Of a stretch of DNA of 64,000 nt, positions 19,998-25,716 are shown piece by piece. A program made the translations under genes and the position numbers. Numbering within the stretch: the stretch's first letter is position 1; the number at the start of each line of letters is the position of its first letter. The notes under the pieces are model-generated. The model was not told the origin of the DNA and ran no database searches. It saw nothing but the letters and a program-made list of their open reading frames with translations. The stretch is from Owenia fusiformis (lineage: Eukaryota > Annelida > Polychaeta > Sabellida > Oweniidae), in contig CAIIXF020000003.1 of NCBI GenBank assembly GCA_903813345.2, positions 29,157,248 to 29,221,247 on the forward strand, written 5' to 3'.

Positions 19998-22900
19998 GAA
20001 CTCGTCTCATCCCATGTGACTTTCTGATTCCTGTTGAGACTCACAACCCTGTACAAGATGGTCTCCATCATCAGGTATTTATATTATACATTCCAGATCT
20101 TGTTCTGTATTGTAAAGTACAGTTAGATCTTATTCTCTAGAATAAAGCATTTCTAATATTTTATTACCCTTTCAGATCTCATATTTCCTTTTGTACATGT
20201 CAGTTATTATATTGTACATTTTACTTCTCTATTGTAAATTCCAGATCTTACTTTCAAACTTCCTGGCCCAGACAGAGGCTCTGATGAAGGGCAAGAGCAG
20301 AGATGTTGCAGAGGCAGAACTGAAGACATCTGGGATGAGCCCAGAAGATATAGCTCACATTCTTCCACATAAGGTACAATTATTAATTGGTTAGGAATAA
20401 ATAACATGTTGGGGATATTAGAGACAAATAAGAAGAATCTGCTGCATGTATGCCAATGTATGAGGCAAGTCAAGTTTATTAGACATGGTTCAGCAGTTCA
20501 TGTTTATTTCCTCTGTCGTAATAAGCCTGAAATGACAAAGCAGTTGAGGGCTTTGGCATTGGGGAAATCTCATGAATCAAAGAATTTAGGTCTTTTCCAG
20601 ATTCTAATATGCAAAAACTAGCAGAAAAACCAATACATATATGTACCTTTCATTGCAGACCAGTATTGTGCCTTCACATGACATATCATACAAGAATATA
20701 GGGATAAAGGAATTTTTCAGATAAGCCTTAATTAAGCTGTTTCCTCCTGTTCATCCTGCAATTGTTTTGATGAGTTCAAATGATGAAACATATATTCCTG
20801 CATACGTTTTCACTTGTTGAGCACTTGTCAACATTACCATTTACTTATTATTGAGGGGTTTAACAGGGGTCCACAAAAAATAAAAAATATTAGATTTTGA
20901 TATTCTTGAAGTTTACAACGGATTATATACTTATGAATCGGATTTTGGGAAAATTATTAGCATGACATATTGATTTTATCTGTTTAATTGAAAATAAGAT
21001 TTCTTTTAACATCATCTTGTTTTTTGTTGATCCGTCAATTGTTTTGATATATCTAAATGATAAAACATATATTCCTACATACGTTTTCACATGTTGAGCA
21101 CTTGTCAACATTACCATTTACTTATTATTGAGGGGTTTGACAGGGGTCCACAAAAAATAAAAAATATTAGATTTTGATATTCTTGAAGTTTACAACGGAT
21201 GAATCGGTTTTTGGGAAACTTATCAGGATGACCTATTGATTTTATCTGTTTAATTGAAAATAAGATTGTTTGTCTGATTATATTTTACATTCAAAATGAT
21301 TAAAAATAATGGTTCCATTTAGTTCACTTTCTTTTAACATCATCTTGTTTTTTGTTGATCCGCCAATTGTTTTGATATGTTTAAATGATAAAACATATAT
21401 TACTACATACATTTTCACCTGTTGAGGACCTGTCAACATTACCGTTTACTTATTATTGAGGGGTTTAACAGGGGTCAACAAAAATATTAGATTTTGATAT
21501 TTTTGAAGTTTACAACAGATTATCTACTCATTAATCGGCTTTTGGAAAGTTTATTATCCCATCGAACGAAGTTCAGTAGGGATAGAGTGAAGCCCGCCGT
21601 CCGTCACTCAGTCAGACAGTCAGTCCATCCGTCCGTCTGTCCGGAAGATAACTTGAATACTAGTACACAGATTTTCTTCATATTTGGTGGAAAGATGTAT
21701 ATTGGTGAATAGTTATACGTAAAAATTTTTTCAAGATGGCCGCCAGTTTAAAAATGGCGGGAATTTTTCGAAAAAATCTTATGTTTTTCATTTTAAACCA
21801 AAATAAGAAACATTATTATTTAAAATATTGGTAGTATATCAACGGTATCTATCTATTTCACATATATCCTGGATTTTTCACCCTGACCCCCAGGGGCCGT
21901 AAATGGGGGGGGGGGGTTGGGAAAACACACATTTGCATTAATTTTGAGATGTTTTTGAAGTGTAGCTTTATTATACTCAAATGAAAGGCAATTTTGAGTA
22001 GATTGCAAATATTGTAGCGTTTTTCTGATTCGGGCCTCAAAAAATTCAAAATGGCTGTCTAATGCGGGATTTTGCAATTATTTCTGATCTCTTAAAAGTA
22101 TGGCTACATTATACTCAAATTGAAGGAATTTCAGAGTAGATAACAATGATGGCAGTGTCTTTCGGATTTGTGCCTCTGAAAATTCAAAATATCCAACTAG
22201 AGCAGATATTCGACATTACTTAGAGCCATCTTTAAAGTATGGTTACAATGATCTAAAATATTTATTGAAGGAAAGAGTAGATGGTAAATATTACATTGTG
22301 ACTGTACAGATTGATGATTTATATGGTGTTCGTTGGGCTACTCCGTGAAGTTGCCATTTTCTAATTAGTATGACATATTGATCTTATCTGTTTAATTGAA
22401 AATAAAATCGTCTATCTGATTATATTGTGCATTCAATATGATTAAAAACAATGATTCCATTTACAGTTCATTTTCTTTTAACATCATCTTGTTTTTTGTC
22501 CGGCAATTGTTTTGATGTTTAAATGATAAAACATATATTCCTATATACATTTTCACCTGTTGAGGACCTGTCAACATTACCGTTTCCTTATTATTGAGGG
22601 GTTTAACAGGGGTCAACAATAATATTAGATTTTGATATTTTTGAAGTTTACAACAGATTATCTCCTCATTTATCGGCTTTTGTAAAGTTTATTAGTATGA
22701 CATATTGATTTTATCTGTTTAATTGAAACTAAGATCGTCTGTCTGACTATATTTTGCATTCAAAATGATAAAAAATAATGGTTCCATTTAGTTCACTTTA
22801 TTTTAACATCATCGTGTTTAATCGTTGATCCGCCATTTGTTAAATGATATGTTTAAATGATAAAACATATATTCCTACATACGTTTTCATCCGTTGAGAA

Positions 22901-25716
22901 CCTGTCAACATTATCGTTTACTTATCATTGAGGGGTTTAACAGAGGTCCATAATAATAAAAAAGATTAGATATTGACACTTTTGAAGTTTACAACGAATT
23001 ATCTACTTATGTATCGGCTTTTGCATTCAAATTATAATCTAAGATGAATTAAGAATGTATTCGCGCTATTTATAAAATTGGATTTTAACATCAATAAAGC
23101 ATATGATATGATGTGGGGTGAAAGGATATATGATTTTTGCGATACAGGCTATCTCTGCAAGCACATAACTTTAGTAATAGATTATTTTATTTAGTAGAAA
23201 ATAGACTATCCCATGAGGCAATGCTAGAACCCGAACGCTCTATATTGAAATTAATAAATACCGCCTCGCCCAATATTTTTCTCAAATAGGTATTCTGCCA
23301 TATCAAGCTCCTGATCATCCAGTATTTGTTTAATATTGCCTGCAGAAATGAGGTTATTAGTATTACCACAGTTAATGCACAGGGCTGAAAAAGCAAAAAT
23401 TATATGCATTGAAAGCTATGTCATTTCCCGGGGAAAATTGCCGGGCGTTAATGCATAATTGGCCCACAACTATGGCCCGCCACTATGACGTCACATATTG
23501 CTCAGATCGATAAAGTAACATAAATGCCTTCTAAACTAGCACTAATACCCCTATAACATTCCCGGCAAGGTGGTAATAATAGTAATTGATCTGAGTACTA
23601 TCCACAAAAATATTCATCTTTTTGAATTTGACTTGAATTAAATCTTCAATAAATGAAAATCTGAACCATTTTAAGATATTCGAAAAATTCAGAAACTGCA
23701 AATAATTCAATTATAACTATTTAAAACAATTTAAATTGCTAGGATATGATAATAACCTTAAAAAGTAAACATTTGATTAGTTATACCAATCATTGTGATT
23801 TTAGAGCCCAAATGTTATCTCGTTTTACAGTTTCAATTTTATAAATCTTCTTGCTGTCAACGTTTTTATAATACTTTACACTTATTTAGTGCCTGTTTAT
23901 AATGATACCGACATTATTGTAATATTGAAATCATATAAGTAATAAAGATCCCCAAATGGAGGTCAATGCCCCCCCCCCCCCCATTTGACATGGCCTTATA
24001 CGAATTAGGTTGTAGACATCAGGATGAAACCTGTTTTTATGATTTATACACCTTAATGATGTAATTTAATCGTAACAATGTACTAGCTTTCCATCTAAGA
24101 ACTATCCGGAAAAATATTTAATTTTCGTAAAATAGACCCCTGCTGAAATCGTTCATAAATGAAGTTCTGTAACCTTGTATGGTTCACAAAAATTCATGAA
24201 TGGTCAATGATATAATCCTAACTAACAAAAGCAAATTAAAAACACTAGGCTGTAACAATAAGTTTTAAAAAATTATACAGTGTTTGATGAGTTATACCTC
24301 CTACTGTGAATTTGGATTCCATTTTGATCTAACTTTTCAGTTGAAATTTTACATTATGCTCTTGATATATAATAATTCATACTTTTTGCACTTATTTATT
24401 ATCTATTCACAAGAAATCTTTTAAAATGATTATTTCTTTAAAAAATGGACCCCTGCTTAAATCTCAAATAAATGATAAATGGTAATGTTGTGTGGTTCTC
24501 AACAAGCAATTCCATATTCAGTGATATTAAATCTATCAATATAATCTATAAAAATGATTGCAACTTGAACAGGAGGTAATTTTAAAATTATTGTCAATTC
24601 CTTTAACACTAATATATTGATATAATGAGTCTAAATGTTAAACAGAATAGTTTAGATTTCTTAATTGGATGCATCTTGCAACTGTCTTTTAAGCTATAAG
24701 TGAGGACAATGTATTGTATTTCAGGTGTTTGAGGGTAACAAGCCAAGCAACTCTGTCATCTTCCAGAAGTTGACTCCTTTCAATCTTGGCATGCTTATTG
24801 GTAAGTTGCAAACTGACTTCTGTTACTTTACAAATATGTTCATTACTGTTTGATTATCTCCCCATTTGTGAGTGCTCTCATGCGACTTTTAAGCTCTAGA
24901 CAGTGTCTAGTGTCTACATGTAAGGATATGCTTAGTTTACTTTAGATTCTGTTTACCTGTTCTTTACACTTACATGTATTTTCAAAATCATTTATGTCGT
25001 ATACATGTATATGATAAAGACAGCTACAATACAGTACAATAAAATCATTGTTGAAAGAATTTTTTCTAGTTTTTATTTTTTCTAGTTCTTCATAAATAAG
25101 TTATATGCAATAGGATTACTTCCTTGCCAGTTCTCTCAGCTCATAAACTGTACTTAATATGTTTTCAGTTCTATATGAACACAAGATCTTCACCCAGGGT
25201 GTCATCTGGGACATTAACTCCTTCGATCAGTGGGGGTGAGTATGCTAGGATCTATTGACTGTCCTTATGTAATAGGCCTATACAATATTGAATGTGCAAT
25301 ATGATTCTAAAATATAAATGTAATTTTCAATTGAATATGCATTAACATTATTTGATAACGATTGTTGAATGTATATGTCAAAGATGTCACAGGTTTATGT
25401 CAACACATATTCCCAAATTCCTCTAAAATGACTATTTGAATATATTTACGTGTACCGTGTATTATTAAATTATTAAGGAATAAATTGAATTGAATTGAAT
25501 AAATTGAATGAACCTCTATAAGTGAAACACCAAAGATGGTTAACTTACACAAGTTTTACTTTCTAAATAATATATGCATCATATATTTGCAGTGTTGAGC
25601 TTGGTAAGCAGCTAGCAAAGGTCATCCAGCCAGAACTTGGGGATGCCACACCAGTAGACAATCATGATTCATCTACTAATGGACTCATCAATTTCATTAA
25701 ATCTCATAGGAAGTAA
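19998..25716 (+). CDS. GPI: Second set of GPI terminal exons (12'-16')
   Basis: Exons 19998-20074, 20245-20373, 24725-24800, 25169-25235 and 25593-25716 repeat GPI exons 12-16 with the same lengths, phases, acceptors and donors. The 473 coding bases differ from the first set at 10 positions (0, 4, 2, 3 and 1 per exon), and every change is synonymous. The encoded residues 403-559, including Lys524, are identical. There is no start codon, no exon 1-11 and no Glu363/His394, so this set cannot make an enzyme alone. It could be spliced to exon 11 as an alternative 3' end, be a silent remnant, or be an uncollapsed allele placed in tandem by assembly. Confidence 0.88.
20701..24690. mobile_element. 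4-kb foldback insertion in intron 13'
   Basis: Intron 13 is 428 bp in copy 1 and 4351 bp in copy 2; the extra DNA is this block. Its left part is a tandem series of diverged units of about 230-320 bp (20750, 21045, 21350, 22490, 22840) sharing GTCAACATTACC, TTATTGAGGGGTTT, ACAGGGGTCCAC and GATTTTGATATT. Its right part (about 24100-24590) holds the same words in reverse complement (GGACCCCTG, GGTAATGTTG). The outer ends also match inverted (CTCCTGTTCATCCTGCAAT against the complement of ATTGCAACTTGAACAGGAG). No transposase frame is visible. Confidence 0.75.
21551..22365. mobile_element. Nested insertion starting TATTATCCCATCGAACGAAG
   Basis: Interrupts one unit of the foldback array: the words AAGTTTATTA and TTAGTATGACATATTG, adjacent in the sister units, are split here by about 815 bp. 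It begins with TATCCCATCGAACGAAGTTC and a GTCC/CAGT-rich stretch. It then contains three tracts sharing TTATACTCAAAT-like words. The same end (GAACTTCGTTCGATGGGATA) appears at 33925-33957 and 50985-51008. Confidence 0.65.

Follow-up and report, generated by a model that had tools for sequence, protein, structure and literature searches.

Tandem copies of gene segments have been traced both to errors of assembly and to transposons. Ko et al. (2022, PMC9516828) document 'false exon gain' inside single genes and false duplications that lie adjacent, in some cases with a wrongly filled gap; they also report a genuine tandem duplication carried by one allele only, inside a single contig, and a tandem present on one chromosome only can have haploid depth. 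In maize, excerpts of a study of hAT reversed-ends duplications (PMC3744419) give three genome cases in which the duplicates are 93–99% identical, and in the model set out there each copy begins with a hAT element, and the target-site duplication of the first element is shared on one side. Here we describe a locus in the annelid Owenia fusiformis at which the last five exons of the gene for glucose-6-phosphate isomerase (GPI) occur twice in tandem. It lies in a stretch of 64,000 nucleotides (assembly GCA_903813345.2, contig CAIIXF020000003.1, forward-strand positions 29,157,248 to 29,221,247), the whole of which was analysed and is called the window below. Judging from the sequence, we give a probability of about one half to a real rearrangement, in which a hAT-mediated exchange between diverged homologues would have placed the gene end of one haplotype (B) behind that of the other (A).

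The duplicated gene end

On the forward strand of the window is an intact GPI gene with 16 coding exons, which starts at an ATG at 7882 and, with the first set of terminal exons, ends at 17440. Exons 1–11 lie at 7882–14698, and the predicted protein is a near full-length match to solved GPIs (residues 9–558 of 559 align to 1gzd, E 6.5e-279). Exons 12–16, which match PF00342 (E 1.4e-60), are found in copy 1 at 15034–15110, 15437–15565, 15994–16069, 16370–16436 and 17317–17440, and are repeated about 5–8 kb downstream in copy 2, at 19998–20074, 20245–20373, 24725–24800, 25169–25235 and 25593–25716. Exon lengths are the same in both copies, the AG/GT borders are intact throughout, and exons 1–11 joined to either set give one identical 559-residue protein. 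By BLAST, the homology extends over 14939–19249 in copy 1 (the proposed haplotype A) and 19903–27614 in copy 2 (the proposed haplotype B), each comprising the tail of intron 11, the five exons, the 3' untranslated region (UTR) and some flank; a 653-bp element, X, separates the two. Copy 1 is complete, with its own AATAAA signals and with splice sites equivalent to those of copy 2, which for its part keeps its splice borders, stop codon and AATAAA signals. Literature searches for GPI duplication gave no related report, only unrelated titles.

Over 473 aligned coding bases the copies differ at 10 and at no amino acid. Third codon positions account for nine of the differences and a first position for the tenth; two of the ten fall in a single leucine codon (TTG to CTA). 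With a silent probability of 0.24 per random change in these exons, calculated from the share of transitions among noncoding differences (69/154), the chance of 10 out of 10 silent changes under drift is 6.6e-7. Synonymous differences (10 at about 113 sites; proportion pS 0.088, divergence dS 0.094) are not distinct in frequency from those in noncoding sequence (154/2621, or 5.9%; Fisher P 0.22), whereas the nonsynonymous count of 0 at about 358 sites is (P 2.4e-9), and the ratio of nonsynonymous to synonymous divergence (dN/dS, omega) between the copies has an upper limit of about 0.1. Likewise, 28 indels lie inside the 2621 aligned noncoding bases, against none in the exons. The noncoding figures derive from a repeated BLAST comparison with copy 2 cut at 19880, from which seven aligned blocks were kept and 9 of 16 rows dropped, namely one self match and eight that overlapped a kept block in one copy or tracked local repeats. 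A global MAFFT alignment of the intron pieces, which aligned unrelated insertions (up to 33.6% difference), was not used.

The data support strong purifying selection at the protein level on both lineages for most of their divergence: 10 silent changes out of 10 are so improbable under drift that neither copy can have been dead during most of that time. An old dead tandem duplicate, drifting since two identical copies arose, would agree with the lack, within the window, of any exons 1–11 of its own between X and exon 12 of copy 2, but it is contradicted by the silent-only count and by the contrast between nonsynonymous and noncoding positions, and we consider it scarcely credible. The same gene offers an example of how a dead piece should look. 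Upstream of the true exon 5, intron 4 contains three repeats of its acceptor and first ~70 bp in a 96-bp tandem array (window positions 11514–11873, repeats at 11515–11805), and when translated by eye these pieces have several replacement codons and a stop relative to the true exon, in contrast to exons 12–16 of copy 2. Gene conversion was provisionally rejected as the source of the protein identity: four of the seven blocks, all with exons, differ by 6.8–14.8% at noncoding positions, so that conversion confined to exons would be needed. Beside this argument stands the last exon-bearing block (exon 16 to the 3' region), which differs by only 3.1% and is the lowest of the series, the highest (14.8%) being that around exon 13.

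Silent-only differences do not, however, show that copy 2 is used. Alleles diverge before any duplication, and the pattern can therefore arise without any use of copy 2. A dS of 0.094, an omega below about 0.1, the absence of coding indels and the large insertion differences would all fit alleles of a hyperdiverse animal as well. As a yardstick rather than a measurement on the present animal, extracts of a barnacle study (PMC8270832) give, for the allele pair of one gene in four single individuals, dS values of 0.061–0.12 and dN/dS values of 0.042–0.11 within each; in 16 of 66 conserved genes the alleles did not differ at any amino acid.

A preliminary description of this DNA had noted the tandem exons with their preserved splice borders and counted ten differences, all silent, over the 473 coding bases; the equal lengths and intact borders agree with this, and the count is exact. 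Its reasoning that a dead fragment would have gained amino-acid changes is borne out by the drift estimate and by the distribution of indels. It had also described introns and 3' flank as differing by substitutions, indels and insertions, which is correct, but the limits of homology had to be redrawn to those given above. The different 3' UTR that it attributed to copy 2 was not found: both copies contain the same 3' sequence, in two aligned blocks with 94.9% and 91.1% identity and with indels, the 94.9% block covering the last part of intron 15 together with exon 16.

The element between the copies

Homology between the copies stops at 19249 and resumes at 19903, and the intervening 653 bp (19250–19902) constitute X, a probable internally deleted hAT transposon on the minus strand. 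Its left end begins TAAAGGACAG and its minus strand begins TAAGGGTCTAACGG, so that the termini read TAAAGG.. on the left and TAAGGG.. on the right (minus strand). The minus-strand 5' side of X is CpG-rich. On the same strand X has an ATG exon (19594–19758), read as a first coding exon, which encodes a stretch resembling a BED finger (WGYFGF...ICRLC) and has a GT splice donor behind it. A further 115 bp (19461–19575) are a dispersed repeat of the surrounding region, of the GACCTT..AAGGTCA type, which is also present near 4.2, 49.8–50.2 and 53.9–54.4 kb. No catalytic domain was seen in the 653 bp, at which no search for one was aimed, and a scan of viral contigs with the X exon gave 10 pattern matches, none of them a relative by tblastn.

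Both ends of X fit the motif YARNG, and the first nine terminal bases agree at six (chance 0.9%). The 8-mers immediately outside, ATCATAAA before the left end and GTTTGTAC after the right, are both of the type nTnnnnAn, which is given as the target consensus of the Hermes transposon (PMC2803484), and both lie at the exact homology breaks. Of 8 left-hand and 7 right-hand offsets tried, the exact homology break was the only one at which YARNG and an outside nTnnnnAn coincided; a random position meets the combination in 0.11–0.13% of cases. The two 8-mers are unlike each other, and no matching target-site duplication surrounds X. Each has its empty counterpart in the other copy, GTTTGTAT at 14939–14946 in copy 1 and ATCACAAA at 27607–27614 in copy 2.

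In view of these features, X is probably an internally deleted but complete hAT-like element, with a different target site on each side. The difference between the two 8-mers means that X did not just insert at a junction that was already there, and a later insertion was ruled out on the absence of a target-site duplication. Unlike 8-mers would be expected at a junction made by recombination or by alternative transposition, but they leave X no more than a putative hAT insertion. We also ruled out an exchange mediated by homology between X and the flanks, as comparison of X with intron 11 (14699–14938) and with 27600–30000 gave nothing significant (best E about 0.1).

Origin of the join

Under the exchange that we favour, haplotype A, the source of exons 1–11 and copy 1, would have carried or received an element at ATCATAAA in its 3' flank, and haplotype B, the source of copy 2 and the right flank, would have carried one in intron 11, at GTTTGTAC. 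The join of A flank, element and B intron 11 would then result if these two elements underwent unequal exchange; a transposition using one end only (alternative transposition), from either homologue into its partner, is another route to it. That the ends of X lie on both homology breaks, next to unlike targets each of which is empty in the other copy, supports an allelic exchange. Since the haplotypes exchanged would have been diverged, the copies would already have been several percent apart at birth. Copy 2, lacking a promoter and placed behind a complete copy 1, would be expected to end as an unused fragment, and may now be unused or used rarely.

Several points weigh against this interpretation. 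A jump by the assembler between haplotypes at X would yield the same string, and a join in the animal itself is presumed. Silent divergence of 9% is too high for alleles in most animals, so that hyperdiversity is assumed here, and the noncoding divergence is uneven, at 3.1–4.5% in three blocks against 6.8–14.8% in four, which this interpretation does not account for. With regard to X, the idea of a hAT element came from its right end, leaving the left end as the independent test; the likeness of the termini is short; the match of the X exon to the ZBED1 structure 2ct5 is weak (E 0.13–0.22) and a Pfam search of the exon gave no match. YARNG is taken here as a form of hAT terminus; a published passage on this motif assigns it to P elements. 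Finally, a second copy of X proper was not found within the window.

The close rival is an assembly artefact, in which the two copies are alleles on two homologues and the assembler, or a gap filler, passed from A to B through a shared X, each chromosome having one GPI 3' end. The divergence is allele-like, false duplications of this kind are on record, as cited at the outset, and the copies together with X would account for everything seen; we regard this explanation as somewhat less probable than the exchange. It requires, however, that X be present at two sites on opposite haplotypes, and outside the masked satellite arrays the window contains no other kilobase-scale duplication. Moreover, there are no N bases in the 64 kb and satellite arrays of ~3.7 and 5 kb were assembled without a gap, so read length probably far exceeded 653 bp, which would disfavour a misjoin at a repeat of this length. 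Because the join falls on both hAT-like ends, we rate a real rearrangement no lower than an artefact. The preliminary description had named, as its competing explanation, the other allele placed in tandem by the assembler; an allelic origin of copy 2 is indeed probable, but an artefact is no likelier than a rearrangement at a hAT-like join.

What that description had preferred, namely that the second set is used, lacks support, given that alleles preceding the tandem would give the same pattern and that copy 1 is complete. Functional alternative terminal exons, with either set joined to exon 11 by splicing and the protein kept identical by selection acting on the two, would explain the silent-only divergence and the signals preserved in copy 2. 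Yet with equivalent splice sites in copy 1 nothing in the sequence favours its skipping, and use of copy 2 would presumably demand that five exons be skipped and transcription continue past the copy 1 poly(A) signals, only for the same protein to be made. There is little reason why a second set encoding an identical protein should be held to an omega below about 0.1, and allelic origin explains the pattern without use; we therefore regard such exons as improbable. A shade less probable still is their strictest form, in which the tandem is real and fixed, exon 11 is joined to each of the five-exon sets, and two interchangeable ends of an identical enzyme are maintained by selection.

The locus shows that silent-only divergence of tandem copies is no evidence of function where they may have been allelic before being duplicated. 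A real join would make it a readable example of diverged homologues united by a transposon within a housekeeping gene, where the two empty sites can still be recognised; a false one would make it a case of false exon gain, which could be annotated as a spurious isoform or gene.

Surrounding features and comparison with known systems

Several insertions, with strand not assigned, set the copies apart. Copy 1 alone has an insertion in intron 15 with inverted ends (16526–16914; GGACGATTCTCGG.../...CCGAGAATCGTCC) and an inverted-ended element with TA on both sides (18390–18565), for which copy 2 shows a clean empty site (GAGAGTAGCTCACTT). Copy 2 alone has ~4.1 kb with internal repeats in intron 13 (20579–24686), the counterpart in copy 1 being ~175 unaligned bases; also restricted to copy 2 is an additional direct duplication of 165 bp (97%) within its 3' region (26578–27000). 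Elsewhere in the window, satellite arrays occupy 1–3724 (98 bp × 38), 27646–28331 (52 bp × 13) and 55668–60880 (39/78 bp, ~5 kb), the last being open in several frames, by up to 1056 codons, for which a 39-bp period would suffice without coding function. A carboxylesterase exon (PF00135) lies at 4523–4813 on the minus strand. The gene at 29144–32790 (minus strand) is probably CIAPIN1; the one open reading frame of it that was searched, 29144–29497, had no Pfam match. TPX2-like open reading frames are found on the plus strand at 38899–44938, one of which (42476–42814) matches PF12214. An inverted pair of ~406 bp (33517–33921 and 34837–35242; 97.8% identical, ~0.9 kb apart) possibly represents the arms of a young mobile element.

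Compared with the false exon gains, or heterotype false duplications, in the cited part of Ko et al. (2022, PMC9516828), the GPI locus is alike in its adjacent, allele-like exon copies in the same order, but its join is gapless and coincides with both termini of a transposon-like element. Tandem alternative exons of the Dscam type, as portrayed in an excerpt on that gene (PMC3236188), likewise consist of tandem exon copies with intact borders; there, however, many duplicated exons give many different isoforms, whereas the two GPI sets give an identical protein, five exons including the stop codon and 3' UTR are repeated, and alternative use is hypothetical. The maize reversed-ends duplications, in the excerpts considered (PMC3744419), share with GPI a direct duplication, a hAT element (at GPI a probable one) at the junction and unlike flanks on its two sides. 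In two of the three maize cases a complete hAT element with its target duplication begins the first copy, and in the third a fractured element is present; the start of copy 1 at GPI (14939) is instead an empty site, which rules out a duplication of the maize type, and an exchange between homologues fits better.
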